Source: an uncultured Eubacteriales bacterium (lineage in GTDB: Bacteria > Bacillota > Clostridia > Oscillospirales > Oscillospiraceae). Taken from it: DNA of 46,950 nucleotides. The position numbers and the translations under genes were made by a program. Below, piece after piece: positions 4,371 to 38,674 of the stretch. The DNA lies in the NCBI GenBank assembly GCA_900319695.1, contig ONPN01000019.1, positions 1 through 46,950 on the forward strand. The letters are read 5' to 3'. Position 1 is the first letter of the stretch, and each line of letters starts with the position of its first letter. A model generated the notes under the pieces. The model was not told the origin of the DNA. It was given only the letters and a program-made list of their open reading frames with translations, and ran no database searches.

Positions 4371-4504
4371 AGAGTGGAGAGTGGAGAGTGAAGAGTGGAG
4401 AGTGGAGTTGTGGAGCGCCTTCGGCGCGGACTGAAAGTTGCTTTCCGTTTTATCTTTTTACTTTTCTCGCAGGGACACCCTTACTCCAAACTCCATACTT
4501 TTTA
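4371..4504. repeat. Dispersed GAGTGTGGAG-type element, copy 1
   Basis: The left arm is an array of GAGTGGAGA/GAGTGAAGA units ending in GTGGAGTTGTGGA, followed by the small hairpin GCGCCTTCGGCGC. The right arm is a short inverted array, TTACTCCAAACTCCATACTT. The right internal hairpin seen in other copies is missing. The right arm abuts the stop of the M14 peptidase gene. Confidence 0.8.
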
Positions 4505-10620: not shown

Positions 10621-10733
10621 TAGAGAGTGGAGTGTGGAGAGTGGAGTGTGGAGTTATGGTGTCGCTTCGCGACGATTTCAATTCATCCACAAAGCGGATA
10701 CCTCAGCTCCACTCTTCAAGCTCCACACTGTTC
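10621..10733. repeat. Dispersed GAGTGTGGAG-type element, copy 2
   Basis: The left array GAGAGTGGAGTGTGGAGAG ends in GTGTGGAGTTATGG, then hairpin GTCGCTTCGCGAC, an ATTTCAATT centre, a decayed right hairpin (ATCCACAAAGCGGAT), and the inverted array CTCAGCTCCACTCTTC...CTCCACAC. It fills the gap between the ileS stop and the lspA leader. Confidence 0.85.
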
Positions 10734-10735
10734 CG

Positions 10736-13534
10736 TCATTGCTTTGCAATAACTGCGGCACATCTCGGGCAGAGCCCGGTCTCGGGATCGGCGTCGGTCG
10801 AATGCTTCCAGCAGCGCGGGCACTTGACACCGGGGGCCTCGCTGACGGAGATTTCAAGCCCGGCGTTCTTCACGCCGCGCCCGGTGACATGTTCGTCGTC
10901 GGCGTCGTCGTCCGCGATGAGGCACCGGGACACAATGAAGAGCTCCGCAAGGTCCATGTCGGCCACGGCCTCGAGAGTTTCTTTCGCGCTCTCGTCTCTG
11001 GCGCGCAGGACAACGGCGGCCTCAAGGGGCTTGCCGATGCGCTTGGCGCTGCGGGCGGCCTCCAGCACACCGTTGACGTCGTCGCGCAGGGCGACCAGCT
11101 TGTCCCACTTCGCCATCTCTTCATCGGAGAGGGCGTAGTCGGTGAAAGCGGCGTTCATGCGGTTGAGCAGAATGTTGCGCGTGTCGTCACCGGCGCGGTG
11201 CGGCATGGCCTGCCAGATCTCGTCGCAGGTGAAGGCGAGGATCGGGGCAAACATGCGGGTCATGGTGTCGAGGATCAGGAACAGAGCGGTCTGCGCGCTG
11301 CGGCGCAGCTGCCCGTCGCGTTCCTCACAGTAGAGGCGATCCTTGATGATGTCGAGGTAGAAGCTCGAAAGCTCCACCACGCAGAAGTCGTTGATCGCGT
11401 GGGAGACCGTGTGGAACTCATAGTCGTTGTAAGCCTGCGCGACCTTGGCGATCAGCTCGTTGAGCTTGGTGACGGCCCAGCGGTCGAGGGGCAGCATCTC
11501 CGCGGGGGAGACGAGCTTGTCCGCATCGAAGCCCTCAAGGTTGCCGAGGCAGTAGCGGGCGGTGTTGCGGAACTTGAGGTAGTTCTGGCTGAGCTGCTTG
11601 AAGATTTCCTTGGAGCAGCGCACATCCACATGGTAGTCGGCGGAGCCCGCCCAGAGGCGAATCATGTCCGCGCCGAACTCCTTGATCATATCAGCGGGGT
11701 CGATGCCGTTGCCGAGGGACTTGTGCATGGCCTTGCCCTCGCCGTCGACAGTCCAGCCGTGGGTCAGGCACTCTTTGTAGGGCGCGCCCTGGTTCAGCGC
11801 GCCGACAGCGGTCAGCAGGGAGGACTGGAACCAGCCTCTGTACTGGTCGCCGCCCTCCATGTACATGTCGGCAGGCCAGAAGCCCTGGTCGCGCTTCATG
11901 GCGGCAAAGTGAGTGGAGCCGGAGTCAAACCATCCGTCGAGGGTGTTGGTCTCCTGGACAAAGTGGGTGCCGCCGCAGTGGGGGCAGACAAAGCCCTGGG
12001 GCAGGATCTCGGATGCCGGACGGTCAAACCAGGCGTTGGAGCCCTCTTTCTCAAACAGCTTTGCCACAGCCTCAATGCTCTCCTCGGTGCAGACCGGCTT
12101 TTTGCAGTCCTCACAGTAGAACACGGGGATGGGCAGACCCCAGCGGCGCTGACGGGAGATGCACCAGTCGGCGCGCTCGCGGATCATGGCGGCCATGCGC
12201 TCCTTACCCCAGGCGGGGAGCCAGCGCACATCATCGCAGGCGGCGACGGCGTCCTCTTTAAAGGAGTCAACCGAGCAGAACCACTGCGGGGTGGCGCGGA
12301 AGATGATCGGGTGCTTGCAGCGCCAGCAGTGCGGGTAGGAGTGGACGATGTTCTCAGACGCGAAGAGAACGCCGCTTTCTTTCATGTCGGCGAGGATGAC
12401 GGGGTTGGATTCCTCGGTGCCGAGCCCGGCGTACTTGCCGGCATACTCGGTGTGGCGGCCCTGATCGTCCACGGGGACAACCATCTCCAGCCCGTAACGG
12501 GTGCAGGTGTTGTAGTCGTCCGCGCCGAAGCCGGGAGCGGTGTGGACACAGCCCGTACCGGAGTCCATGGTGACGTAGTCGGCCAGCATCAGCAGACTGG
12601 TCTTCGGCAGGAAGGGATGGTCTGCGAGCATGTACTCGAAGAAGCGGCCCTCGTGGGTCTCGACGATCTCCCAGGACTCAACGCCGCCCGCCTTCATGAC
12701 AGCGGGAATCAGCGCCTCGGCCATAATCAGCATCTCGCCGTTCGGCAGCTTTACGATCGCGTAGCTGTCGCCGGGGGAGAGGGTGATGCCGAGGTTGCCG
12801 GGCAGGGTCCAGGTCGTGGTGGTCCAGATCAGGAAGAAGAGCTTCGACTTGTCCAGATGGCTCAGCTTGCCCTTGTCGTCGTGCATCGGGAACTTGACGT
12901 AGACGGTGGTGACGGGGTCGTCCTGGTACTCGATTTCAGCCTCGGCGAGAGCGGTCTCGTCGTGGGCGCACCAGTAGACGGGCTTGAAGCCCTTGTAGAT
13001 GTGGCCGTTGCGGTACATCTTGCCGAAGATGCGCACCTCGTCCGCCTCAAAGCCCTTGTTCATGGTGAGGTAGGGGTGATCCCAGTCGGCAACGACGCCC
13101 AGGCGCTTGAAGCCGTCCATCTGGCGGTGAACGTACTTCTCGGCGTACTTGTGGCAGGCGGAGCGGAAATCCGCCACGCTCATGGCCTTGTGATTGAGCT
13201 TCTGCTCCTTGATGATGGCGGACTCAATGGGCATGCCGTGGTTATCCCAGCCGGGGATGTAGGGCGTCCAATAGCCGCGCATGGCATAAGAGCGCACGAT
13301 GAAATCTTTGATGCACTTGTTGAGGGCGTGACCCATATGGATGTCGCCGTTGGAGAAGGGAGGTCCGTCGTGCAGGGAGAAGCGGGGGCCGCCCTCATTC
13401 TTTTTCAGGGTCTCGTTATAGAGATCGAGCTCTTCCCATTTTTTAAGCATATCCGGCTCGCGCTTGGGAAGGCCGGCGCGCATCGGAAAGTCGGTTTTCG
13501 GCAGATTCAGTGTGGCGTTAAAGTCCTGTGACAT
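10736..13534 (-). CDS. ileS: Isoleucyl-tRNA synthetase
   Basis: The 932-residue class I synthetase charges tRNA-Ile. The HIGH signature is HMGHALNK (after DGPPFSNGDI) and the KMSKS-like loop is AMHKSLGNG, a form common in clostridial IleRS. The CP1 editing domain lies between them (TTTTWTLPGNLGITL). The C-terminus has the zinc-ribbon cysteines CPRCWKH ... CPRCAAVIAKQ. The length is normal for the bacterial type. It lies between divIVA and lspA, the usual Firmicute order. I looked for a T-box leader in the about 90 bases upstream and found none. Confidence 0.97.
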   Translation of the reverse strand: MSQDFNATLNLPKTDFPMRAGLPKREPDMLKKWEELDLYNETLKKNEGGPRFSLHDGPPFSNGDIHMGHALNKCIKDFIVRSYAMRGYWTPYIPGWDNHGMPIESAIIKEQKLNHKAMSVADFRSACHKYAEKYVHRQMDGFKRLGVVADWDHPYLTMNKGFEADEVRIFGKMYRNGHIYKGFKPVYWCAHDETALAEAEIEYQDDPVTTVYVKFPMHDDKGKLSHLDKSKLFFLIWTTTTWTLPGNLGITLSPGDSYAIVKLPNGEMLIMAEALIPAVMKAGGVESWEIVETHEGRFFEYMLADHPFLPKTSLLMLADYVTMDSGTGCVHTAPGFGADDYNTCTRYGLEMVVPVDDQGRHTEYAGKYAGLGTEESNPVILADMKESGVLFASENIVHSYPHCWRCKHPIIFRATPQWFCSVDSFKEDAVAACDDVRWLPAWGKERMAAMIRERADWCISRQRRWGLPIPVFYCEDCKKPVCTEESIEAVAKLFEKEGSNAWFDRPASEILPQGFVCPHCGGTHFVQETNTLDGWFDSGSTHFAAMKRDQGFWPADMYMEGGDQYRGWFQSSLLTAVGALNQGAPYKECLTHGWTVDGEGKAMHKSLGNGIDPADMIKEFGADMIRLWAGSADYHVDVRCSKEIFKQLSQNYLKFRNTARYCLGNLEGFDADKLVSPAEMLPLDRWAVTKLNELIAKVAQAYNDYEFHTVSHAINDFCVVELSSFYLDIIKDRLYCEERDGQLRRSAQTALFLILDTMTRMFAPILAFTCDEIWQAMPHRAGDDTRNILLNRMNAAFTDYALSDEEMAKWDKLVALRDDVNGVLEAARSAKRIGKPLEAAVVLRARDESAKETLEAVADMDLAELFIVSRCLIADDDADDEHVTGRGVKNAGLEISVSEAPGVKCPRCWKHSTDADPETGLCPRCAAVIAKQ

Positions 13535-19799: not shown

Positions 19800-20209
19800 A
19801 AGTTAGGAGTTTGGAGTTAGGAGTGTGGAGTTGATTGTCTTTGTTGAGGATGATAACATTTTTCTCAGCTCTTCACAGTCACTATATAGAGACTGAAACT
19901 GCTCTTCTGTCAGATAATCGGTTTCTTTCATAAGCTTTAACCAATATAGAGTCTCTGAACACTCTTTTAATGAGATATATAATTTTGATAAAAAATCCTT
20001 TCGGCTGATTGCATTTTCCGCTTCAGCCAGATTAGCGCCAATGCTCGTTTCGCTTCGGAGAATCTGTTTGGAAAGGGTGTATTCTTTCTTTTCGTCGCAG
20101 AGATACTGATATAATTTCACAATTCGGACGGCAAAATGGAGACTTTTTTCTTTTGCTGTGACGGGAAGAGCCATAACTCCACACTCCTCACTCCAAACTC
20201 CACACTATT
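19800..20209. mobile_element. Candidate S23-bearing element 1 (terminal inverted arrays plus S23 gene)
   Basis: The S23-family gene is tightly bracketed by inverted copies of the dispersed array. The left end (19801-19833) reads AGTTTGGAGTTAGGAGTGTG. The right end, read inversely (20208-20171), gives AGTTTGGAGTGAGGAGTGTG. Over about 25 bases the ends differ at one position. The arms supply the gene's SD-like AGGAG, its ATG context (GGAGTTATGG) and its last codons. Unlike solo copies, no internal hairpins separate gene and arms. Confidence 0.7.
19803..20174 (-). CDS. S23/four-helix-bundle protein, copy 1 (upstream of mutL)
   Basis: The 123-residue, all-helical protein belongs to the S23/IVS four-helix-bundle family, small proteins first seen inside intervening sequences of 23S rRNA and related in fold to the Avd protein of diversity-generating retroelements. 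Diagnostic stretches are HFAVRIVKLYQYLCDEK, SIGANLAEAENAISRKDF and SLKECSETLYWLKLM. The start ATG and an AGGAG nine bases upstream lie inside the flanking repeat. The last residues (about NSTLLTPNS) are encoded by the other arm. It is about three quarters identical to copy 2 at 21749. mutL starts 19 bases downstream, so the gene may be cotranscribed. Its biochemical function is unknown. Confidence 0.88.
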   Translation of the reverse strand: MALPVTAKEKSLHFAVRIVKLYQYLCDEKKEYTLSKQILRSETSIGANLAEAENAISRKDFLSKLYISLKECSETLYWLKLMKETDYLTEEQFQSLYSDCEELRKMLSSSTKTINSTLLTPNS

Positions 20210-20223
20210 ATACATTCTTTGAG

Positions 20224-20253
20224 TTGAAACTTCCATAGGCTTTATGTTAAAAT
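20224..20253 (+). promoter_or_regulatory. Promoter for miaB
   Basis: TTGAAA (20224-20229) and TAAAAT (20248-20253) are separated by 18 bases, and TG precedes the -10 (TG-T-TAAAAT). It begins about 15 bases beyond the end of S23 element 1. Confidence 0.65.
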
Positions 20254-20291
20254 ATAAAGACTGAGTAATGGAAAATAGAGGAGTTTTACCC

Positions 20292-21710
20292 ATGCCGATT
20301 GAGAGAAAAGTCATTGATATAGAGAAAATCGAGGCCCAGCGGGCGATCTGCGCAAAAATTTTTGAGCGCGTGACCGCCGACGGGCAGAGGCCGCTTGCCA
20401 TGGTGGACACCTATGGCTGCCAGCAGAACGAGGCCGACAGCGAAAAAATCCGCGGCTACCTCGCCGAGATGGGTTACGGCTTTACCCGGGATGAGTTTCA
20501 GGCGGACGTGATCGTGGTCAACACCTGCGCCGTGCGCGAACACGCCGAGATGCGCGTGCTCGGCAACGTCGGCGCGCTCAACCACGCCAAGAAGGCGCGG
20601 CCCGGCCAGATCATCGCGGTCTGCGGCTGCATGGTCCAGCAGGCCCACATGGCCGAGAAGATCAAAATGTCCTACCCCGTGGTGGATCTGGTCTTTGGCC
20701 CGCACGAGCTCTGGCGCTTCCCGGAGCTGCTGCTGCAAGTCATGGAAAAGCATAAGCGCGTCTTCGCCACCGCGAAGGAGGAGGCCGTGGCCGAGGGCAT
20801 CCCGCTCAGAAGGGACGGCAAGGTCAAGGCGTGGCTCTCCATCATGTACGGCTGCAACAACTTCTGCACCTACTGCATCGTCCCCTACGTCCGTGGGCGT
20901 GAGCGCTCGAGGCGGCCCGAGGATGTGGTTGCCGAGGCGCGGCAGCTTGTCGCCGAGGGGTACAAGGACATCACCCTGCTCGGCCAGAACGTCAACTCCT
21001 ACGGCAAGGATCTCGACTGCGGCGTGGATTTTGCCGACCTTCTGCGCATGATCAACGACATCCCCGGCGACTTTCTGATCCGCTTCATGACCAGCCACCC
21101 GAAGGACGCCACCGAAAAGCTCTTCCGCACCATGGCCGCGTGCGAAAAGTGCGCTCACCATATCCACCTGCCCGTCCAGTCCGGCAGCGACCGGGTCTTA
21201 AAGCGCATGAACCGCCACTATGACCGGGCCAGGTACCTCGAAGAGATCGCTTTCGCGCGCAGTCTCATGCCCGACCTTGTCATCACCACCGACATCATCG
21301 TGGGCTTTCCCGACGAGACGGAGGAGGACTTCGCCGATACCTTGAGCCTCTGCGAAGAGGTGCGCTTCGACGCGATGTTCACCTTCATCTACTCCAAGCG
21401 CGTCGGCACCCCGGCGGCCTCCATGCCCGACCCCTACACCCGCGAGCAGAAGCAGGTGCATTTCGATCAGCTCACCGAGCTTGCCAACCGTATCTCCGGC
21501 GAGAAGCATAAGGAGTACGAGGGCAAAACCCTCCGCGTCCTGGTGGACGGCGAGACGGGGAAGGAGCCCTACAACCTCTCCAGCCGCACCAACGGCGGCC
21601 GCCTCGTGCACTTAAAGGGCGACCCCGCACTCATCGGGCAGTTCATCGACGTGAAGATCACGACGAGCAACACCTGGGCGCTGTATGGGAGTGTGGAGTG
21701 TGAAGAGTGA
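20292..21710 (+). CDS. miaB: tRNA-2-methylthio-N6-dimethylallyladenosine synthase MiaB
   Basis: The 472-residue radical SAM methylthiotransferase converts i6A37 to ms2i6A37. The N-terminal domain carries three cluster cysteines (DTYGCQQNEADS, NTCAVRE, CGCMVQ). The radical SAM motif is CNNFCTYC near residue 187, followed by VPYVRGRERSR. The C-terminal TRAM domain closes the protein. The start at 20292 has AGAGGAG eight bases upstream. The last residues (about GSVECEE) and the stop come from the dispersed repeat that begins at 21687, so the natural end has been replaced. Confidence 0.96.
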   Translation: MPIERKVIDIEKIEAQRAICAKIFERVTADGQRPLAMVDTYGCQQNEADSEKIRGYLAEMGYGFTRDEFQADVIVVNTCAVREHAEMRVLGNVGALNHAKKARPGQIIAVCGCMVQQAHMAEKIKMSYPVVDLVFGPHELWRFPELLLQVMEKHKRVFATAKEEAVAEGIPLRRDGKVKAWLSIMYGCNNFCTYCIVPYVRGRERSRRPEDVVAEARQLVAEGYKDITLLGQNVNSYGKDLDCGVDFADLLRMINDIPGDFLIRFMTSHPKDATEKLFRTMAACEKCAHHIHLPVQSGSDRVLKRMNRHYDRARYLEEIAFARSLMPDLVITTDIIVGFPDETEEDFADTLSLCEEVRFDAMFTFIYSKRVGTPAASMPDPYTREQKQVHFDQLTELANRISGEKHKEYEGKTLRVLVDGETGKEPYNLSSRTNGGRLVHLKGDPALIGQFIDVKITTSNTWALYGSVECEE

Positions 21711-22216
21711 AGTGTGGAGTTAAGGAGCGCCTTCGGCGCAATTAGAAAATGAGAGAAGACTTAAACGCCAAAGCCAAGAGCAAACACTTTGCGATACGGA
21801 TCGTGAGATTATATCAATTTCTTTGCGATGAGAAAAAGGAGTATGTACTCTCAAAGCAGATACTCAGGAGTGGGACAAGCATCGGGGCCAATCTTGCTGA
21901 AGCGGAGACCGCGAGCAGCAGAAAGGATTTCCAGGCAAAAGTCTACATTGCGCTGAAAGAGTGCTCGGAAACCCAGTACTGGCTGGAGCTTTTGAAAGAA
22001 ACTGATTATCTGACCAAAGAACAATACAACTCTCTGAACAATGATTGTGAAGAGATACGGAGAATGCTGTCCTCAACGACAAAAACACTGAAACTGACAG
22101 CAGAGAATGAAGAGTAATGCACAGAAGACAGAGAGCAGCTTCCTCAAGTCAATTTAAATTTTGTCCGCGAAGCGGACACAACAACTCCACACTCCACTCT
22201 TCACTCTCCACACTAT
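21687..22216. mobile_element. Candidate S23-bearing element 2 (arms, hairpins, AATT half-sites, S23 gene)
   Basis: The order is: left array GGGAGTGTGGAGTGTGAAGA... ending GTGTGGAGTTAAGG (21687-21724), hairpin GCGCCTTCGGCGC (21727-21739), AATT, S23 gene (21749-22117), 34 bases, AATTTAAATT (22151-22160), hairpin GTCCGCGAAGCGGAC (22163-22177), and the inverted array AACTCCACACTCCACTCTTC to 22216. Solo copies have the same order with a short loop in place of the gene, so the S23 gene occupies the apical loop of the element. Confidence 0.72.
21749..22117 (+). CDS. S23/four-helix-bundle protein, copy 2 (upstream of mutS)
   Basis: The 122-residue paralogue of the gene at 19803 shares the same family blocks: HFAIRIVRLYQFLCDEK, SIGANLAEAETASSRKDF and ALKECSETQYWLELL. 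The start ATG follows a TTAGAAA and has no strong SD. It lies between miaB and mutS on the plus strand, inside element 2. The two S23 genes point away from miaB, one toward mutL and one toward mutS. Function is unknown; an RNA-binding or element-maintenance role is speculation based on the IVS and Avd relatives. Confidence 0.88.
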   Translation: MREDLNAKAKSKHFAIRIVRLYQFLCDEKKEYVLSKQILRSGTSIGANLAEAETASSRKDFQAKVYIALKECSETQYWLELLKETDYLTKEQYNSLNNDCEEIRRMLSSTTKTLKLTAENEE

Positions 22217-24875: not shown

Positions 24876-25633
24876 TGGAAGAAAAACGACTCCCCTGGCC
24901 CCGGCCCTTCACCAGCCGACTTGCAGGACGCGAGACCATCCCGGTGCTGGCCTATTTGCCGGTGCACCTCTTTCTCCTGCCCTACATATTCAACCGCCTG
25001 TTTGAAAGCGGCGTGATCGACCACGCTGGGGCAAATGTGATCTACTACAGTCTGGGTTTTGTCTGGATGATTTTCACCGCCTTCGGCTTTCTGCGCCGCG
25101 ACTTTGACGCGCTGATCGACGCGCCGCTGCGCTGCGTGCTGGAGGTACTCCGAGCTTACGGTCTGCTGCTCTGCTGCAATCTGGCGATAGGACTGCTGTT
25201 TTTGTACCTGCTTCCGATGCTCGGCGGCAACCCCAACAACCAGGCTGTCGCAGAGGCCGCAGGGGTCGCCGAAGCGAGCGGGGTCGCGGCGAGTACAGCC
25301 GTGAGCATGACGGGCGGCAGCGCGATCAAGGCAGTCGTCATCTTCTTCGGTCCCGTGGTGGAGGAGATGCTGTTTCGCGCCGGAATTTTCGGCGTGCTGC
25401 GGCAGCGAAACCGCCGCGCGGCCTATATTGTGAGCGCCCTGTGTTTTGCGATTGCCCACGTCGCGCCATACGCGGCGCTGTCGCCGGTCTACTGGCTGTA
25501 TCTCATTCAGTACATTCCCGCCGCCCTGCTGCTGGCACGATGCTACGAGCGCTCAAGCTGCATCTGGTGCAGCATCTTTTTCCACATGCTCAACAACGGC
25601 GTCGCCCTCAGCGCGGCGAGCCTGTTGATGTGA
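24875..25633 (+). CDS. CPBP-family intramembrane glutamic protease
   Basis: The 252-residue polytopic membrane protein has the CPBP (CAAX/Rce1-like) motifs: EEMLFRAGIFGVLR (EExxxR), FAIAHVAPY (FxxxH) and FFHMLNNGVAL (HxxxN). Family members process peptides or immunity-related substrates in the membrane. It is translationally coupled to mutS by TGATG. The final residues overlap the start of repeat copy 5, which begins at the stop. The substrate is unknown. Confidence 0.87.
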   Translation: MEEKRLPWPRPFTSRLAGRETIPVLAYLPVHLFLLPYIFNRLFESGVIDHAGANVIYYSLGFVWMIFTAFGFLRRDFDALIDAPLRCVLEVLRAYGLLLCCNLAIGLLFLYLLPMLGGNPNNQAVAEAAGVAEASGVAASTAVSMTGGSAIKAVVIFFGPVVEEMLFRAGIFGVLRQRNRRAAYIVSALCFAIAHVAPYAALSPVYWLYLIQYIPAALLLARCYERSSCIWCSIFFHMLNNGVALSAASLLM

Positions 25634-25813
25634 GTGTGGAGTTTGAAGAGTGGAGTGTGGAGTTAAGGAGTCCGCTTCGCGGACGAATTAAAAAGGCTCT
25701 CTCCGCAGAGCCCAACGCCCTCGACGGCCCGGCGGAGAAATCTGCATCCCCTTTTTTCAATTGTCGCGAAGCGACACCACAACTCCACTCTCAACTCTTC
25801 ACTCTCCACTCTG
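25632..25813. repeat. Dispersed GAGTGTGGAG-type element, copy 5, with about 70-bp non-coding insert
   Basis: The left array GAGTGTGGAGTTTGAAGAG ends GTGTGGAGTTAAGGA, then hairpin GTCCGCTTCGCGGAC and GAATTAAAAA. The centre (about 25694-25757) carries its own hairpin GGCTCTCTCCGCAGAGCC. Then CAATT, hairpin GTCGCGAAGCGAC and the inverted array CACAACTCCACTCTCAAC to 25813. TrmO begins 15 bases later. Confidence 0.85.
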
Positions 25814-25827
25814 ATAAGGAGCCTGCC

Positions 25828-26517
25828 ATGTCCAACGCCCACATCGTCCGCCCCGTCGCTGTGATGCGCAGCGACTTTCCGGAAAAATTCGGCATCCCGC
25901 GCCAGGCGGGGATCGTCCCGGAGCTGGAAAGCCTCGTGGTCTTTGAGCCGGACTATCGTGATCCCGAGGCCCTGCGCGGCATCGAGGGCTTCAGCCACCT
26001 GTGGCTCATCTGGCAGTTCTCCGAGTCCGTGACGGAGAGCTTTTCGCCCACAGTACGCCCGCCGCGCCTCGGGGGCAATACGCGCGTGGGCGTTTTTGCC
26101 ACGCGCTCGCCCTTTCGCCCGAACGCTTTGGGCCTTTCCTGCGTGGAGCTCAAGCGGGTAGAGCAGCGCCCCGGCCTCGGGACGGTACTGGTGGTGCGCG
26201 GGGCCGATCTCATGGACGGCACGCCGATCTATGACATCAAGCCCTACGTCCCTTATGCGGACTGTCACCCCGAGGCAAGCGCGGGCTTTGCTCCGGACCC
26301 CGGCGCGACGCTCTGCGTGGAGCTTCCCGACGAGCTTGCCGCAATGCTGCCGCCGGAGAAGATCGACGCCCTGCGCGGCGTTCTGGCAAACGACCCCCGC
26401 CCCCGCTACCAGCGAGACCCCAAACGGGTCTACGCCATGGACTTTGCCGGAGTCACCGTGCGCTTCACCGTGGACGGCGATACGCTGACGGTGAGGAAAA
26501 TAGAGAGTGAAGAGTGA
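25828..26517 (+). CDS. trmO: TrmO/TsaA family tRNA (t6A37) methyltransferase
   Basis: The SAM-dependent enzyme methylates N6-threonylcarbamoyl-A37 of some tRNAs. The 229-residue protein has the VirR-like/UPF0066 beta-barrel signatures: RSDFPEKFGIPRQAG, GFSHLWLIWQF, GVFATRSPFRPNALGLSCVEL, and LMDGTPIYDIKPYVPYADCH. AAGGAG lies six bases before the ATG. Its last codons (ESEE) and stop are formed by repeat copy 6. MiaA and MiaB in the same region modify the same tRNA position. Confidence 0.92.
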   Translation: MSNAHIVRPVAVMRSDFPEKFGIPRQAGIVPELESLVVFEPDYRDPEALRGIEGFSHLWLIWQFSESVTESFSPTVRPPRLGGNTRVGVFATRSPFRPNALGLSCVELKRVEQRPGLGTVLVVRGADLMDGTPIYDIKPYVPYADCHPEASAGFAPDPGATLCVELPDELAAMLPPEKIDALRGVLANDPRPRYQRDPKRVYAMDFAGVTVRFTVDGDTLTVRKIESEE

Positions 26518-26618
26518 AGAGTTGAGAGTGGAATTGTGGAATCCGCTTCGCGGATGATGTTTAATCGTCGCGGAGCGACACCATAACTCCACTCTTCACT
26601 CTCCACACTCCACTCTTT
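26500..26618. repeat. Dispersed GAGTGTGGAG-type element, copy 6
   Basis: The left array GAGAGTGAAGAGTGAAGAG ends GTGGAATTGTGGA, then hairpin ATCCGCTTCGCGGAT, centre GATGTTTAATC, hairpin GTCGCGGAGCGAC, and inverted array ACCATAACTCCACTCTTC to 26618. It fills the whole gap between the convergent trmO and dpaB stops. Confidence 0.87.
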
Positions 26619-27191
26619 TTATCTTAATATCGGCTGCAATTGCTCGCCCCGCAGCGCGGCTTCAATCGTCTCGCCCAGGAGCGTGAAATCTGCTTGCAGA
26701 GAGCGGGGCTTCTTCACGGGATCGTCCTGGCGGAAGGGGACAAAGTAGACATTCTTCCGGTTTAGCAGCCGCGCGATGTTCTCGGCCGAGCCGGAGAGCC
26801 CGTCGTTGGTGGAGAAGGCGAGCACCAGCGGCCGCCCGTTTCTCAGGTGGGCCTTGGCCGCCATGACCACCGCGCTGTCGGTCATCCCGTGGGCGAGCTT
26901 TGCCAGCGTGTTGCCCGTGCACGGCGCGATCAGCATGGCGTCCATCGGCTCCTTCGGCCCAAGCGGCTCCGCCTCCGCAATCGTGGTGACCACCCTTTTC
27001 CCTGTCAGCGCCATGAGGCGGCGGATGTGGTCGGCCGCGGTTCCGAAGCGGGTGTCCGTCTCGGCGGCGGTCTCGCTCATAATGGGGACAAGCTCGTAAG
27101 TCTCCGCAAGGCTTTCGGCGGCCTTGAAGACCTGCTCATATGTACAGTAGGACCCGCAGAGAGCGAGGCCCAGGCGTTTTTTACCGCTCAT
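26619..27191 (-). CDS. dpaB: Dipicolinate synthase subunit B
   Basis: The 190-residue flavoprotein-type subunit, with DpaA, makes dipicolinic acid, the spore-core chelator, in the mother cell. Signatures are LGLALCGSYCTYEQVF, the IMSETAAETDTRFGTAADH region, and the flavoprotein-like MLIAPCTGNTLAKLAHGMTDSAVVMAAKAHLR. The start overlaps the dpaA stop by 11 bases. Its stop abuts repeat copy 6. It indicates an endospore former. Confidence 0.94.
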   Translation of the reverse strand: MSGKKRLGLALCGSYCTYEQVFKAAESLAETYELVPIMSETAAETDTRFGTAADHIRRLMALTGKRVVTTIAEAEPLGPKEPMDAMLIAPCTGNTLAKLAHGMTDSAVVMAAKAHLRNGRPLVLAFSTNDGLSGSAENIARLLNRKNVYFVPFRQDDPVKKPRSLQADFTLLGETIEAALRGEQLQPILR

Positions 27192-28050: not shown

Positions 28051-28086
28051 AGGCACCACCTCCACAGCATCGTATGTCGGAAAAGA

Positions 28087-28190
28087 GCGGAGTGTGAAGA
28101 GTGGAGTTGAAGTGTTGCTGCGCGACAATTTAGAATTGTCCGCGAAGCGGACACCATAACTCCAAACTCCACACTTCACACTCCACACTA
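28087..28190. repeat. Dispersed GAGTGTGGAG-type element, copy 7
   Basis: This is a compact copy: GCGGAGTGTGAAGAGTGGAG, hairpin GTTGCTGCGCGAC, palindrome ACAATTTAGAATTGT, hairpin GTCCGCGAAGCGGAC, then CCATAACTCCAAACTCC and more array to 28190. The outer arms pair over about 20 bases with one mismatch. It lies between the divergent dpaA and thyA, and its right end forms the -35 of the thyA promoter. Confidence 0.88.
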
Positions 28191-29554: not shown

Positions 29555-29587
29555 AAATGAGGATGCAGACCGGCATCCTCATTTTTT
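29555..29587 (+). terminator. Rho-independent terminator of thyA-folA
   Basis: AAATGAGGATGC pairs with GCATCCTCATTT around a 6-base loop, and a T-run follows. The A-rich left flank makes it able to work in both directions. Confidence 0.92.
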
Positions 29588-29730
29588 ATACTGTTTTTCG
29601 TTAAAACGGTTCGTTTTAACGAAAAGGCATCGCGCAAAGCGCGCTGCCAGTTTTGTGCCCTTGGGCACAAAACACGTCTCATAGGTCTATAAAACGGCTT
29701 TAAGCCGTTTTATGGGAGACCAGTATTAAT
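29586..29730. repeat. Block of four near-perfect palindromes; a second partial copy at 46837
   Basis: In order: CGTTAAAACGGTTCGTTTTAACG-type palindrome (29599-29621), CGCGCAAAGCGCG, TTTTGTGCCCTTGGGCACAA (29653-29674), and ATAAAACGGCTTTAAGCCG (29691-29713). The ends resemble inverted repeats (TAATACTG type). The first 20 bases (29589-29608) recur exactly at 46837-46856. No open frame is seen. Confidence 0.75.
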
Positions 29731-30776
29731 CACAGTTTTTTCTGATAGTATCTCAGCGCCGTTGGAATGGGACAGTCGGTTTTGATTTCCGCCGGGGTCA
29801 TCCAGAGAAAGCCCGGAAGCTCTTTATGCAGCTCCACGCGGTATCCGCGCATGTGCCACTCAACGTGTGTGAACACATGCTTTGCCTCCCCGCAGGGCTC
29901 AACGGACAGCGCCTCCGCACCGAGCGCGCGCACGGCGTCACGCGCCCCGGCCTCGTCCAGCGCGCCGGGGACGTTCGGAAACTCCCACAGCCCCGCGAGC
30001 AGACCCTTGCCCTCACGCTTGCGCACGGCGTAACGATCTCCGCAGCGCAGCAGTAAGACCGTCCGCTCCTCCATGCGGCGCTCCTTTTTGGGGCTTCGCA
30101 CCGGGTAACGCTCCGTCTCGCCCCGGAGGCAGGCGCGGCACAGCGTGTTCAGCGGGCAGAGCCCGCACTTCGGCGCGGCGTTCGGCAGACAGACGGTCTC
30201 GCCGAGCTCCATGATCCCCTCGGTCAGCAGACCCGCCGCCTCCCCGCGCGGATAATGTGCCCGAAGCAGGGCAGCCGTGTCGGCGCGAGTTTTGGGCAGC
30301 ATCACGTCGTCGGCGCAAGCAAGCAGACGGGTCATCACCCGCAGGACGTTTCCGTCCACAGCGGGCTCCGGCTCCCCGCAGGCGATGGAGGCGATTGCCC
30401 CGGCCGTGTAATCCCCGATCCCCGGCAGCTTTCTGAGCGCGGCGGCCTCCCGCGGCAGCTCTCCGCCGTACTCCGCCATGACGATGCGCGCAGCCTTTTG
30501 CAGGTTCCGTGCCCGGCTGTAGTAGCCGAGACCTTCCCAGAGCTTTAATAAAGCGTCCTCATCGACAGCCGCCAACGCCTCGATATTGGGCAGCGCGTCC
30601 AGAAAGCGGGCGTAATACGGGATCACCGCCTCAATGCGCGTCTGCTGCAGCATGATCTCCGACACCCACACATGATAGGGCGTGGGTTCTGCCCGCCAGG
30701 GCAGAGGGCGGCGTACGGCCCGGCACCAGTCGACCAAAAGCGGTATGCAGCTTTGAACCAGCGCCTTGTCGTCCAT
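29730..30776 (-). CDS. mutY: A/G-specific adenine glycosylase MutY
   Basis: The 348-residue base-excision enzyme removes A opposite 8-oxoG. The helix-hairpin-helix is LPGIGDYTAGAIASIA and the catalytic Asp lies in AVDGNVLRVMTRL. The 4Fe-4S ligands are CLPNAAPKCGLCPLNTLC, spaced C-x7-C-x2-C-x5-C, one residue longer in the first gap than the E. coli pattern. A C-terminal NUDIX-like domain (VRKREGKGLLAGLWEFPNV) reads 8-oxoG. The start at 30776 has AAAGGAG five bases upstream. Confidence 0.95.
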   Translation of the reverse strand: MDDKALVQSCIPLLVDWCRAVRRPLPWRAEPTPYHVWVSEIMLQQTRIEAVIPYYARFLDALPNIEALAAVDEDALLKLWEGLGYYSRARNLQKAARIVMAEYGGELPREAAALRKLPGIGDYTAGAIASIACGEPEPAVDGNVLRVMTRLLACADDVMLPKTRADTAALLRAHYPRGEAAGLLTEGIMELGETVCLPNAAPKCGLCPLNTLCRACLRGETERYPVRSPKKERRMEERTVLLLRCGDRYAVRKREGKGLLAGLWEFPNVPGALDEAGARDAVRALGAEALSVEPCGEAKHVFTHVEWHMRGYRVELHKELPGFLWMTPAEIKTDCPIPTALRYYQKKL

Positions 30777-30784
30777 AGCGTCTC

Positions 30785-31012
30785 CTTTCAAAATACAGGG
30801 GCGGCATTTGCCGCCCCACAGACTGTAGACAATCCCTTGCAAACCAAGCTGGTCTTGTAAGGGGGATTTGTGAAGGGGGACGGGGAGTCCCCCTTCACGT
30901 ACAATCCATACAAAAATGGGAACTTTTTCGGAAGTTCCCATTTTTGCCCTGCAAGCTGTCGACAAAGTGTCGACAACTTGCAGGGGCGGCAAAAGCCGCC
31001 CCCGTGTTTTTA
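30785..31012. repeat. Intergenic array of five hairpins
   Basis: Between mutY and the membrane protein gene lie five strong palindromes: GGGGCGGCATTTGCCGCCCC near 30790, a GGGGGACGGGGAGTCCCCC hairpin near 30877, AAAAATGGGAACTTTTTCGG with its inverse near 30913-30946, CTGCAAGCTGTCGACA with its inverse near 30951-30984, and GGGGCGGCAAAAGCCGCCCC near 30983. The last can terminate the membrane-protein gene. No open frame is supported. Confidence 0.75.
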
Positions 31013-31955: not shown

Positions 31956-32927
31956 ATGCTCAGACGCAGTGTTTTTACAGCCTGGCTCGCCCTCGGGCTG
32001 CTCTTTGCCATGCTGTGGGCGGAACGGCTCCTTGCCCCCGCCCCTGCCATATCGAGGGAGAGCGCCGCGCCGGATAGGGCTTTTGCGCCGATAACGGTGC
32101 GCGTCCTGCACGGGGAGGAAGTCGTGGATACTCCGCTGGAGGACTATCTCGTCGGCGTGGTAGCGGCGGAGATGCCCGCGGATTTTGAGCCGGAGGCCCT
32201 CAAGGCCCAGGCGGTGGCGGCCAGAACCTACACGCTCTACTGTATGCGCACAGGGAGGCACGAAAACGCGGACGTCTGCACGGACTTCCGCTGCTGTCAG
32301 GCCTGGAAGAGCGGCGCGGCCATGCGCGAGGGCTGGGGCGAGGCATACGGGGACAAGCTCGCCCGCATCCGCGAGGCCGTGGAGGCCACCGCCGGTGAGT
32401 ATCTGTGCTGGGAGGGGCAGGCAGTCTTTGCCGCGTTTCACTCCTCATCGGCGGGCTTTACCGAGGACTGCGGCGCGATCTGGAGCGGCCTGCCCTATCT
32501 TGTGAGCGTGTCAAGCCCCGAGGACGAGGGCTCGGTTCCGGGCTATGTGAGCACCGTGGAGCGCAGCGCGCTGGACTTTCGGGACACCCTGCTCTCCGTC
32601 GCCCCGGAGGCGGACTTCTCAGGGGAGCCCGAGTCCTGGCTCGGAGAGCTCAGGCGCGACGCGAGCGGGCGCGTGTCGGAGGCGGTGATCGGCGGGGCGG
32701 CGTTTTCGGGTGTGAAGCTGCGGGAGCTCTTCGCCCTGCGTTCTACGGCCTTTGACCTGGCGTTCGTCGACGGGGCCTTCCGCTTTACGGTCACGGGCTT
32801 CGGCCACGGCGTGGGAATGAGCCAGTACGGCGCGAATGTCATGGCCGCCCAGGGCGCGGACTATCGCACGATACTGGCTCACTACTATCCAGGGACGGAG
32901 CTTGTCAGTTTGGAGAGTGGAGAGTGA
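31956..32927 (+). CDS. spoIID: Stage II sporulation protein D (SpoIID) peptidoglycan lytic transglycosylase
   Basis: The 323-residue membrane-anchored enzyme degrades septal peptidoglycan during engulfment. The N-terminal anchor (VFTAWLALGLLFAMLWAE) precedes the SpoIID domain: PLEDYLVGVVAAEMPADFEPEALKAQAVAARTYT, with the catalytic Glu in AAEMP, then FAAFHSSSAGFTEDC and GFGHGVGMSQYGANVMAAQG. GGAG lies before the ATG. The last residues (ESGE) and the stop come from repeat copy 8. It supports an endospore-forming host. Confidence 0.94.
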   Translation: MLRRSVFTAWLALGLLFAMLWAERLLAPAPAISRESAAPDRAFAPITVRVLHGEEVVDTPLEDYLVGVVAAEMPADFEPEALKAQAVAARTYTLYCMRTGRHENADVCTDFRCCQAWKSGAAMREGWGEAYGDKLARIREAVEATAGEYLCWEGQAVFAAFHSSSAGFTEDCGAIWSGLPYLVSVSSPEDEGSVPGYVSTVERSALDFRDTLLSVAPEADFSGEPESWLGELRRDASGRVSEAVIGGAAFSGVKLRELFALRSTAFDLAFVDGAFRFTVTGFGHGVGMSQYGANVMAAQGADYRTILAHYYPGTELVSLESGE

Positions 32928-33019
32928 AGAGTGGAGTTGAGGTGTCGCTGCGCGACGATTTAAATGATCCGCGAAGCGGATACCATAACTCCACACTCCA
33001 CACTCCACTCTCCACACTC
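32910..33019. repeat. Dispersed GAGTGTGGAG-type element, copy 8
   Basis: The left array TTGGAGAGTGGAGAGTGAAG ends GTGGAGTTGAGG, then hairpin GTCGCTGCGCGAC, ATTTAAAT, hairpin ATCCGCGAAGCGGAT, and the inverted array ACCATAACTCCACACTCC to 33019. It spans the whole gap between the convergent spoIID and aldo/keto reductase stops. Confidence 0.87.
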
Positions 33020-34048
33020 TTACATCAAATCTTTGTGCGCCTCATAGAACTCGCGGTAGTCCTTGAGCATATGCTTCAGGAGCTTCGGGGTGTCGAGCTG
33101 GTAGGGGCACTTGGAGGCGCAGCTGTAGCACTCGAGGCAGTCGTCGATCTTGTTCATCTTCTCCTGCCACTCCGGCGTCATGTACTGCTGCCAGGGGGAG
33201 CGGCGCAGCAGCCTGTCCATACGCGCGCAGTTGCGGATTTCAATTCCCACAGGACACGGCATGCAGTAGCCGCAGCTGCGGCAGAAGGAGCCGGCCAGCT
33301 CTTGCCGTTCTTTTTTGATGAAGGCGTCGAGCTCCGCGTCCATCTTCGGGTCCTCTCTGTCGACCGCAAGCCACTGCTCCAGCTCCTCAAAGCTCTGGAT
33401 GCCCCAGATGGGCACCACGTTGTCATAGAGACCCATAAAGGCGTGGCAGGCGCGGACGTTGGTGAGCATGCCTCCCGCGAGACCCTTCATGGCGATGTAG
33501 CCCATGTCGGCCTCCTTGCACTTCTGGGCGAGGGCCAGGTCGCGCTCGGAGGAGATGTAGCTGAACGGAAACTGCAGGGTCTCGAAATACCCGGAGGCAA
33601 TGCAGTCCTCGGCCACATTCACACGGTGAGAGGTGACGCCGATATGGCGGATCCAGCCGCGCGCCTTCGCCTCCAGCGCCCCGGCATAGGCTCCCTCCGG
33701 GTCGTTGGGATCGGGAACCTCGGACACCTGATGGAACTGAAAGAGGTCGATGTAATCGGTCTTCATCATCCTGAGGCTGTTTTCGATGTGCGCGAGCACG
33801 CCCGCCTTGTCACGCGCGGCGCTCTTGGTGGAGATCACGATGTCCCCGCGCACATCGGACAGGGCGAGACCGATCTTCTTCTCGCTGTCGGTGTAGGCGT
33901 TGGCGGTGTCGAAGTAGCGGATGCCGCCCTCGTAGGCCGCCTGTAAAAGCCTCACGGCATAGTCCGTATCACAGCGCTGCACCGGCAGGCAGCCCATGGA
34001 GGTCTTGGTCACGACGAGGCCGGTTTTTCCGAGCGTGAGTGTTTTCAT
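33020..34048 (-). CDS. Aldo/keto reductase with C-terminal 4Fe-4S ferredoxin domain
   Basis: The 342-residue protein combines an AKR barrel with an iron-sulfur tail. The AKR tetrad is visible as D and Y in FDTANAYTDSEK, K in STKSAARDK and H in DLFQFHQV. The C-terminus has CRSCGYCMPCP and CLECYSCASKCPY, giving two 4Fe-4S sets. Such fusions are common in anaerobic Clostridia, and the substrate is unknown. GGAG lies nine bases before the ATG at 34048. The stop abuts repeat copy 8. Confidence 0.9.
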   Translation of the reverse strand: MKTLTLGKTGLVVTKTSMGCLPVQRCDTDYAVRLLQAAYEGGIRYFDTANAYTDSEKKIGLALSDVRGDIVISTKSAARDKAGVLAHIENSLRMMKTDYIDLFQFHQVSEVPDPNDPEGAYAGALEAKARGWIRHIGVTSHRVNVAEDCIASGYFETLQFPFSYISSERDLALAQKCKEADMGYIAMKGLAGGMLTNVRACHAFMGLYDNVVPIWGIQSFEELEQWLAVDREDPKMDAELDAFIKKERQELAGSFCRSCGYCMPCPVGIEIRNCARMDRLLRRSPWQQYMTPEWQEKMNKIDDCLECYSCASKCPYQLDTPKLLKHMLKDYREFYEAHKDLM

Positions 34049-36787: not shown

Positions 36788-38674
36788 TTATCCGACCACG
36801 GCCAGCGCTTCAGCCAGGGCCTCGGGATAGAGATCCGTCTGGGCGCCGACGATGGGATCGCCCAGCAGATTGCCCTCGCTGTCCACGAAGAAGCTCGTGG
36901 GGACGTAGAGGGTAAAGAGCTGATCCTCAATATCGTCCGTGCAGACCAGATTGAGGAAGTCCGCGCCGTTTTCTTTCAGCAGAGCCTTGGCCTCGCGGCC
37001 GGCCTCCGCGCCGTCGAGACAGACGCCGACGATCTGGCAGCCCTGCTTTTCAAACTCGCGCGCGAGCTTTCCGAGTTCCCCGAGCTCTCCGCGGCAGGGG
37101 CCGCACCAGGTCGCCCAGAGGTTGAGCATCGTGACCTTGTGCCCGGCGAAGAGCTCCTCACTCGTCACCTCGTTGCCGCTGAGATCGGTGGTCTTGAAGG
37201 AGACCGCACCGTTCGACTCCGCGTGGGCGGACAGGGGCTCCGACAGGGTCAGACCGGACAGAAAAGCGTCACGGTCTGCGCACAGGGCGGTAAATTCGTC
37301 GTACAGCTCACCCATGGCAGCGCTGTACGCATCCGTCTCGTCCTCAAGCTTGGCGTACTGCGCCAGGTAGAAGGTGGTATCGCCCTCTTTGCCGAGCTTT
37401 TCCAAACTGATGAATTCTGCGCCGTAGGGCTCGTTATACTCGGCCAGGAAGGGCAGCAGCTCCTTGAGCCCGCGATTGCCATCGATGCCGATGAGGTCAA
37501 ACAGGCACCCGCATATATGTTCGTCATCCCACCCGGACTTCGGCGCTTCGGGCTCTTCCGTGCCAAAATCAATGGCCTCAAAGCGCGCGTTTGTGTATGC
37601 AACAAAGGCGTCCCAGTCCTCGTCCGGGATCGCATAGTACAGCGCCGCAATCTCCACAATGCCGGGGTCGGCCATGCTGAGCGGACCGCCGCCGCTCCAG
37701 GAGAGCTTGCCGCGGATATTCTGATAGCGCTCCGGCAGTTCAAAGTGGAAACCGACATAGGGCGCGTCGATCACTTCGTAGTTTTCAAGCTCCGCGGGCT
37801 CCTTCGCAACAGGCTCTTCCACAGCGGGCTCCTCGACGACGAAAGGCTCTTCCACAGCGGGCTCCTCAACGACGAAAGGCTCTTCCGCAGCGGGCTCCTC
37901 GATGACGAAAGGCTCTTCCACAGCGGGCTCCTCAACGACAAAAGGCTCTTCCGCAGTGGGCTCCTCAATGACGAAAGGCTCCTCAACCACGGCGGGGGCC
38001 GCCTGTACGCCGCCGATCAGGCGGATGTTGTCAAGAATCAGCGCCTTGTTCTCCAGCAGGGAGAGATATTCCTTCAGGTAATCCGCCCCGATCACCTCCG
38101 GCGAGCAGAAGCCCAGCAGCAGGTCGGGATTAAAAGCGCACAGGAAATAGGCGTAGCCGTCCCGCTCCCCGATGGGGGTGATGTCCAGATTCTCATAGAG
38201 CTCCGTGACCTGCTTGAAAAGCTCCTCTTCACCCTCATAGTAGACGGGATCCAGATTCTGCTCCATGAGCCAGGCGCGCAGTTCCGCTTCACCCCGGCCG
38301 TTGCTGAGGGCAATAATACTCCCGATCGGCAGAATCTTGCCTGCAAACTGATCGTTTATCTCGCTCAGCTTGTCAAGATCCCCCGAAAGAAAGGCGTCCA
38401 TCTGCAGCTTGCTGAGCTGATCGCACTCCTTCGCGGGCATGGCGATGTAGTCGATGCTGACAGACAGGATGCCCTCGCCGGGGGTGTAGCCCTCGCCGGA
38501 ATCGATAAACTCAAGGCTGCCCTTCGCTGTGCGGAACTCCATCGGGATCCACAGCTCAATACCGGACAGCTCGCCCGTCCAGACCTTTTCGATGCTGCCG
38601 CCGTCTGCCCAGGCCATACCGCCCAGGGAGAGGAGCATCAGCACGGTTAAAAGAAGACTGATGGTTTTTTTCAT
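36788..38674 (-). CDS. Exported TlpA-like thioredoxin with EEP repeat linker
   Basis: The 628-residue protein has a signal peptide (residues 1-24), a first domain starting ELSGIELWIPMEF, an acidic linker of 11-residue EEPFVVEEPAV repeats at 231-296, a second similar domain (APYVGFHFELPERY), and a C-terminal TlpA/AhpC redoxin with WATWCGPCR (WCGPC near 523-527). The redoxin would reduce or isomerise disulfides outside the cytoplasm. The linker is encoded by five to six copies of a 33-bp tandem repeat. It is divergent from the radical SAM gene and followed by GtrA. Confidence 0.88.
   Translation of the reverse strand: MKKTISLLLTVLMLLSLGGMAWADGGSIEKVWTGELSGIELWIPMEFRTAKGSLEFIDSGEGYTPGEGILSVSIDYIAMPAKECDQLSKLQMDAFLSGDLDKLSEINDQFAGKILPIGSIIALSNGRGEAELRAWLMEQNLDPVYYEGEEELFKQVTELYENLDITPIGERDGYAYFLCAFNPDLLLGFCSPEVIGADYLKEYLSLLENKALILDNIRLIGGVQAAPAVVEEPFVIEEPTAEEPFVVEEPAVEEPFVIEEPAAEEPFVVEEPAVEEPFVVEEPAVEEPVAKEPAELENYEVIDAPYVGFHFELPERYQNIRGKLSWSGGGPLSMADPGIVEIAALYYAIPDEDWDAFVAYTNARFEAIDFGTEEPEAPKSGWDDEHICGCLFDLIGIDGNRGLKELLPFLAEYNEPYGAEFISLEKLGKEGDTTFYLAQYAKLEDETDAYSAAMGELYDEFTALCADRDAFLSGLTLSEPLSAHAESNGAVSFKTTDLSGNEVTSEELFAGHKVTMLNLWATWCGPCRGELGELGKLAREFEKQGCQIVGVCLDGAEAGREAKALLKENGADFLNLVCTDDIEDQLFTLYVPTSFFVDSEGNLLGDPIVGAQTDLYPEALAEALAVVG
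37787..37984 (-). repeat. 33-bp tandem repeat encoding the EEPFVVEEPAV linker
   Basis: Five full units plus one degenerate unit, each 33 bp, code for EEPFV(V/I)EEP(A/T)(V/A). Units differ by only a few bases, so copy number could change by slippage or recombination in frame. Confidence 0.9.

Follow-up and report, generated by a model that had tools for sequence, protein, structure and literature searches.

S23 four-helix-bundle genes between inverted heptamer arrays: evidence for a foldback element family with gene-less copies

Genes for S23 proteins have long been known from insertions in ribosomal RNA, and a small gene lying between palindromes, with many gene-less copies elsewhere, is the familiar arrangement of RAYT genes with their repetitive extragenic palindromic (REP) sequences and bacterial interspersed mosaic elements (BIMEs). 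Here, we describe two S23 genes that recall both systems in a stretch of 46,950 nucleotides (nt) from an uncultured Eubacteriales bacterium of the Oscillospiraceae (GCA_900319695.1, contig ONPN01000019.1, positions 1 to 46,950; hereafter, the window). Both genes are bracketed by inverted arrays of a seven-letter repeat, and the same unit is dispersed through the genome as gene-less foldback copies. The source genome comprises 2.82 Mb in 96 contigs, is 79% complete, and contains the window as contig C35.

The closest described systems are the intervening sequences (IVSs) of 23S rRNA that carry an S23 open reading frame, with which the present loci share that reading frame and complementary ends able to pair in a long stem. 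In the available sections of a 2016 paper (PMC4990558), an IVS is described with tandem heptamers at its 5′ end, whose number varies among strains, and with the RNase III cut at the first heptamer repeat; these sections also use the term “selfish genetic element”, cite a mobility hypothesis from 1993 and call the function and origin of such sequences unclear. By contrast, the S23 loci described here lie outside 23S rRNA, as do many gene-less copies. In fact, at the Rfam gathering threshold no rRNA was found at any of 120 distinct S23 loci (80 from a cross-phylum set, 30 from a gammaproteobacterial-class set, both introduced below, and 10 more), with a few tRNAs and one lysine riboswitch nearby. 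We read the published S23-bearing IVS as an element of the same kind that landed in 23S rRNA.

Bacterial heptameric tandem repeats are a second system to be compared, the likeness being a period of 7, dispersal and a mostly intergenic location. According to the sections available, they include GGGNATC in Xanthomonas and Nostoc and TAACTGA in Beggiatoaceae (PMC4692102, PMC4679880, PMC6344855), and the Xanthomonas heptamers form 70 inverted pairs in Xcc and 75 in Xac, with four units preferred. The SPADE survey of 7006 prokaryotic genomes, as far as its accessible text goes, reports tandem heptamers as the commonest intergenic repeats in many species and gives no clear clue to their function (PMC6344855). 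The term “four helix” is absent from the main texts of these three papers, as is “S23” from that of PMC4679880. No published description of S23 genes between heptad arrays was found in a search whose reach excluded most subscription papers.

The analogy with RAYT genes and REP sequences, drawn by an earlier reading made from the sequence only, stands as regards the layout, a gene between palindromes plus dispersed gene-less copies, but not as regards the enzyme: the gene here codes for an S23 ring protein matching PF05635 instead of a Y1 transposase, no Y1_Tnp (PF01797) was found in the source genome (79% complete), and the arms are tandem heptamers. A RAYT element was, consequently, rejected. 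Unlike a miniature inverted-repeat transposable element with its autonomous DNA transposon, the full copy carries no transposase. A diversity-generating retroelement was rejected as well, since no RVT_1 (PF00078) was found in the same 79% complete genome; the accessory protein Avd of such retroelements is a PF05635 relative that acts together with a reverse transcriptase, according to the part of PMC10053308 consulted, and the window S23 gives only a weak NCBIfam match to it (20.5 bits, cut-off 80).

Both window reading frames had been assigned to the S23 type, which the profiles bear out (PF05635, E 1.5e-31 and 6.4e-34, plus TIGR02436; PF17217 was below its cut-off for one gene). The proteins had been put at about three quarters identical; the measured value is close, although slightly lower, at 70% over 122 residues. 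A third S23 gene lies elsewhere in the source genome. The heptamer of both window elements is GGAGTGT with variants, in inverted arms that are 91% complementary in element 1 (19801-19832/20175-20206) and 94% in element 2 (21690-21721/22183-22214), and S23 is the sole gene between the arms in both. The features are as follows.

19801..19832, plus strand: left heptad arm of S23 element 1, overlapping the gene's last codons
19803..20174, minus strand: S23 gene 1, four-helix-bundle, PF05635/TIGR02436, 123 amino acids
20175..20206, minus strand: right heptad arm of element 1, abutting the start codon
21690..21721, plus strand: left heptad arm of S23 element 2
21727..21739, plus strand: inner hairpin GCGCC-TTC-GGCGC of element 2, of the hairpin family of solo copies
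21740..21743, plus strand: left AATT half-site of element 2
21749..22117, plus strand: S23 gene 2, 122 amino acids
22151..22154, plus strand: right AATT half-site of element 2
22163..22177, plus strand: inner hairpin GTCCGC-GAA-GCGGAC of element 2, of the hairpin family of solo copies
22183..22214, minus strand: right heptad arm of element 2

Both layouts agree with what had been read from the letters. Element 2 (21.7-22.2 kb) runs arm, hairpin, AATT, S23, AATT, hairpin, arm, while element 1 (19.8-20.2 kb) is without inner hairpins and AATT, its arms lying directly on the gene, with the start context GGAGTT-ATG on the minus strand. The genes flanking the two loci look, from their sequence, like mutL, miaB and mutS. 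Several known identities were considered and rejected: a known RNA family for the elements, as the window has no Rfam match (RNA family or rRNA) at the gathering threshold; a known defence gene, as there is no PADLOC match; and a phage gene, PHROGs giving a single weak, function-unknown match for one of the two window S23 proteins.

The dispersal of the same unit without a gene, also claimed earlier, was found in the window, where there are six gene-less foldback copies, the centre being longer or degenerate in two (G068, G072 and G077 are relatives of the source genome).

4377..4500: gene-less copy with a degenerate right part
10622..10736: gene-less copy
25632..25818: gene-less copy with a longer centre; G072 has no insert there and G077 a copy with a different centre
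26502..26621: gene-less copy, common to the source genome and G068
28081..28190: gene-less copy whose G068 counterpart is degenerate
32905..33022: gene-less copy; the centre of its G068 counterpart is, by eye, inverted and decayed

Additionally, the 118-nt copy at 32905, used as a blastn query, matched the source genome 93 times, and these matches amount to at least 40 distinct foldback places, a lower bound that comes from 40 scored candidates out of 94. One of these places is at an S23 gene and 39 are away from S23, and the dispersed palindromes share their ends with the gene-bearing copy. The inner hairpins vary among copies, and a perfect stem of at least 4 is found in all 40 hairpins of 20 cores, which is a permissive test. 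In 18 aligned cores, 90.8% of the cells are paired, and sliding the partner strand lowers this to 36-46%. The core covariation score is 0.215 versus 0.112 after shuffling (reached in 0 of 500 shuffles) and 8 pairs are changed on both sides versus 3.8 (1 of 500), counts that are not probabilities because the structure was read from the same sequences and all cores belong to a single genome.

Occupied and empty sites, the comparison suggested by the sequence-only reading, were found in close relatives at both window S23 loci. Locus 1, which was compared in five relatives with both flanks, is present at the same place in G077 and absent in G068 (94-97% identical to the source genome in the flanks of the window loci), G065, G072 and G020. 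Locus 2 is absent in all five; G077 keeps one arm together with other DNA, and G036, in whose genome there is no S23 match, has a gap of 1,272 nt. In copies that are shared, the heptad number changes and the centres are replaced (by eye), and the site in the relative is often taken by a different palindromic repeat. In a wider comparison, 62 sites of the source genome were located, a number that includes duplicates owing to overlapping loci, and 655 kb of G068, on contigs chosen for repeat matches, yielded 18 site pairs, 12 of them shared and 6 with something else in G068 by our own reading. When nine shared pairs were folded, the source-genome copy was the more stable in eight and had the higher arm score in six, a result that leans to this genome as the sites were picked by similarity to its own copies. 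Two further observations concern these relatives: the centre of the G068 counterpart (L261) of one source-genome site (L016:526) apparently holds another palindromic repeat, an element within an element, and G020, without S23 at window site 1, has an S23 gene past the other end of the mutL-like gene (L050, G020:C114:22534-22833).

How often S23 genes in relatives are flanked by arms had been named as a check, and the arrangement proved more general than its window. A locus was called armed when its inverted score was at least 28 and its lag-7 score at least 18, a rule fixed after arm data had been seen. In the genus set of 102 genomes, S23 matches were found in 45 (above the cut-off in 43); 79 loci were taken and 77 re-found by profile, L133 and L135 being dropped. 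By the rule, 39 of the 77 are armed, 9 have one array and 29 none; the armed count is 38 without L137, whose score is due, on inspection, to a palindrome without heptads. The cross-phylum set consists of the best 80 of 587 confirmed matches, leans to the window's own clade, and covers Bacillota, Bacteroidota, Cyanobacteriota, Spirochaetota, Pseudomonadota, Planctomycetota, Lentisphaerota and Ignavibacteriota. Arms are found at 66 of 78 loci in the label count, which leaves out two, and at 67 of 78 when 100 nt or more is required on each side. A third set, picked by Pfam score regardless of resemblance to the window protein, holds 30 listed loci from a 369-genome sample (77 genomes with an S23 match) of the class to which G106, a Neisseriaceae genome by its record, belongs, a class we take to be gammaproteobacterial; 24 of the 29 scored loci have arms, L364 being unscored as its gene was missed by the motif. 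Among plasmids (10 of 25 records examined), 9 of 10 S23 loci pass the rule and all 10 have a lag-7 score of at least 19 on one side or both. S23 matches occur in 2 of 50,697 phage records, and H26, the sole one inspected, is without arms.

The period is specific. In the genus set, lag 7 reaches 22/28 in 19/77 upstream and 21/77 downstream flanks and its harmonic, lag 14, in 9 and 6, while each remaining lag from 3 to 15 does so in 0 or 1 flank and regions 1 kb away do so in 0/66 and 0/73. In the cross-phylum set, lag 7 reaches 21/28 in 61/80 upstream and 59/79 downstream flanks, lag 14 in 28 and 26, and the remaining lags in 0 or 1; at 1 kb distance, lag 7 is found in 6/146. Some individual S23 loci deserve mention on their own account: one on a Monoglobus plasmid (L246) has annotated type I restriction genes on its two sides, for subunits S and R, one on an Anabaena plasmid (L254) lies between cas2 and cas1, and a genome of 1.5 Mb (G442) has 11 weak S23-like matches, ten of them nearly full-profile, with no heptad arms and no rRNA in the three stretches examined (L388-L390).

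The heptamer itself varies by locus (AGTTAGG, AATGCAC, AGGTAGG, AATTCGT and others), and in three further genomes the heptamer of the S23 locus is dispersed, with gene-less inverted pairs in two of them. For instance, the genome of the L162 locus contains 48 matches to its heptamer AGATTAC, of which 14 lie at S23 and the remaining 34 at 13 further places; AGATTAC is absent from 15 other S23 genomes (1 of 16 carries it) and, read backwards, gives 9 matches in the L162 genome and 7 in another. GGGAATC (L394), which is a repeat published for Xanthomonas, is found 36 times in its genome (G484), twice at the S23 locus, and forms six inverted pairs about 60-200 nt apart, while 25 other genomes (15 with S23, 10 without) lack it and the reversed pattern gives none. 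AATTGAT (L167), from the isolate Flavonifractor sp. An10 (G104), also has 36 matches in its genome; among 18 stretches examined there, the S23 copy (522 nt) accounts for one and gene-less foldbacks of 66-220 nt for 12 (two weak), while the other 5 are without a heptad foldback. As a side observation, two alike loci of one genome (L331 and L338, G102) have an AGATTAC array opposite an array of a different heptamer, as if families had been combined.

The anatomy of the arms may be related to the structure of the protein. Among 177 arms, length peaks at 31-32 nt (56 arms), and 75 arms have five in-phase core positions, against 52 with four. The A[AG]T core keeps phase on the inward strand in 134 arms and on the opposite one in 49 (both strands, 36 arms; neither, 30). 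The register of the two arms of a locus agrees at 0.90 (a value favoured by the choice of the best diagonal), against about 0.71 when slid by 7 and 0.79 for neighbouring units (98 loci). The only clear S23 relatives of solved structure found by sequence are 2rld and 2gsc, with five chains each, and the title of the 2gsc paper, known from its citation, speaks of “five four-helix bundles” for Xcc0516. Five cores together with five subunits suggest one heptad per S23 subunit. Additionally, heptamer similarity correlates with S23 protein similarity (r 0.35 over 99 loci; r 0.16 over 61 cross-phylum loci; 0/500 permutations in each case), which recognition could explain, but so could the element being inherited as a unit.

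The S23 protein is under strong purifying selection, with dN/dS (the ratio of nonsynonymous to synonymous substitution rates) of 0.08-0.18 in the 5 of 10 gene pairs whose synonymous sites are unsaturated. In a tree of 148 S23 proteins, built on few columns and with many unresolved forks, the longest inner branch separates 19 rows, all armed, and the arms therefore look old. As 26 of the 28 armless rows fall in one 41-row clade (24 genus rows and 2 of 4 cross-phylum rows), the arms look to have been lost or to have diverged in one line. The armless genus genes (L095-L116 and others) are at seemingly ordinary chromosomal sites, judged by eye from the translated neighbours of 14 loci, and the function of S23 in this clade may be different.

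An S23-linked element family with gene-less offspring, put forward earlier for the window, is well supported here, in other genera and in other phyla. Our preferred explanation, to which we give a probability of about 0.55, is an old family of selfish foldbacks, with heptads bound by the S23 ring. In this model, each arm is a run of heptamers, five being the commonest number of in-phase A[AG]T cores, and the two arms, being mirror images, could pair into one long hairpin when present as RNA or single-stranded DNA. The TRAP ring protein holds one RNA triplet per subunit; on this model, an S23 homopentamer would grip one arm, one heptad per subunit. The S23-arm complex might then let the element be copied into new gene ends by host replication or repair enzymes or by some further partner, and gene-less copies would be served in trans. 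A copy landing in 23S rRNA would be trimmed by RNase III and seen as a classical intervening sequence. The broadest form of the idea is more tentative, and we would put it somewhat below even odds: a transposase-free mobile class present across phyla, whose S23 pentamer reads five heptads per mirrored arm and, unaided or helped by host enzymes, propagates the foldback together with its gene-less copies, so that rRNA IVSs and much of bacterial heptamer periodicity would be its products.

A number of observations weigh against this explanation. Firstly, the arms are not universal: 29 of the 77 genus genes lack an array by the rule (five are fragments, L129-L131, L134 and L136, and two, L108 and L122, are at contig ends), all 24 armless genus genes in the tree sit in the 41-row clade, and in one genome (L104, G028) S23 lies between inverted arms of period 8, GAATGAAG-type, which the rule calls armless. 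Secondly, four cores per arm are nearly as frequent as five. Thirdly, the pair types of the inner hairpins are not raised over shuffling (12 versus 11.2; 200/500), and stems of at least 5 beside the arms occur in 46/134 cross-phylum and 27/80 genus arms, against 14.6% in shuffles. With so modest an enrichment, in about a third of the arms elsewhere, the inner hairpin was rejected as a family-wide trait. Fourthly, the dispersed AGATTAC arrays are mostly single instead of inverted; the L394 S23 frame covers only 1-64 of the 106 profile positions and is possibly broken; and AATTGAT is not exclusive to G104, because it is present in 7 of 15 other S23 genomes, with 46 matches in G113 exceeding the 36 of G104. 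Finally, S23 is probably not produced in vivo according to the sections of PMC4990558 available.

Other observations concern what moves the elements. Solo copies in many genomes without any S23 had been named beforehand as evidence against the earlier reading, and this was borne out in part: of the 40 genus genomes with window-type elements, 19 have S23 and 21 have no detectable match. Four of the latter (G053, G061, G074 and G100) are 92-95% complete, with weak element matches in G061 and G100; repeat-flanked genes may have been lost from draft genomes. The association by genome is weak (S23 in 19/40 element-bearing versus 26/62 other genomes). The three genomes whose S23 genes have GGAGTGT-type arms (G000, G020 and G077) all belong to the 8 with an element match better than 1e-20, a coincidence of 56/171,700, about 3e-4, calculated by hand for a test chosen after the data had been seen. 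Target-site duplication gives no clear signal in 31 solo copies (shared flank 3.6 versus 3.3 nt permuted; 9/300). Because no reverse transcriptase or Y1 transposase was matched, no clear target duplication is seen and 21 of 40 genomes are without S23, we offer movement driven by S23, like the binding of heptads by S23, as a hypothesis.

Among other explanations, the one that survives best, which we consider rather improbable, is that S23 is a regulator or RNA chaperone with the arrays as operators, which would have spread through selection, slippage and gene conversion, the copies at its own gene being autoregulatory. In favour are the strong purifying selection on S23 and the variation of arm length and heptad number at shared sites; moreover, the accessible sections of the Xanthomonas literature cited above describe the heptamer repeats as mostly transcribed and generally away from mobile elements. 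However, foldbacks with alike inner hairpins occupy at least 40 places of one genome and are present or absent at orthologous sites, and mirrored arms at new places are not made by slippage alone.

It is slightly less probable still, and in our view unlikely, that another enzyme, a transposase or reverse transcriptase, resident or visiting, moves the elements, and that S23 is a passenger or helper tolerating the loop. Loops do hold other DNA (the longer centre at 25632 and the palindromic repeat in a G068 copy), the 21 element-bearing genomes without an S23 match would be accounted for, and Avd offers a precedent for a relative of S23 partnered with a reverse transcriptase (PMC10053308, in the part available). 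Against this stand the lack of RVT_1 and Y1_Tnp in the source genome, a search that covered these two enzyme families in a 79% complete assembly, and the occurrence of S23 between arms in many phyla with a heptamer that differs by locus, in a survey confined to S23 genes.

Chance, in the form of low-complexity DNA near an AT-rich gene in a repeat-rich genome, is hardly credible and was rejected, since, common as heptamer arrays are in bacteria and even with the 6/146 lag-7 arrays at 1 kb distance, inverted arms were found in none of the 1,560 shuffled flank pairs and none of the 66 pairs taken at 1 kb, and a lag-7 array on either side in 0 of 29 scored HTH_3 control genes (of 30) of the same genus.

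With the selfish foldback family as the preferred explanation, S23, a family with solved structures, becomes a candidate partner of bacterial heptamer repeats, and two puzzles are joined, namely, the abundance of intergenic heptamers and the origin and function of the intervening sequences of 23S rRNA. S23 foldbacks may, thus, help to explain why seven-letter repeats are so abundant in bacteria.

The window also contains repeats of other kinds. Two more intergenic palindromic repeats, unrelated to the heptad element, lie at 29584-29735 and 30819-30980, and G068 carries dozens of copies of their relatives, 85-98% identical. At 37778-38017, there are tandem repeats of 33 bases, in six overlapping copies.

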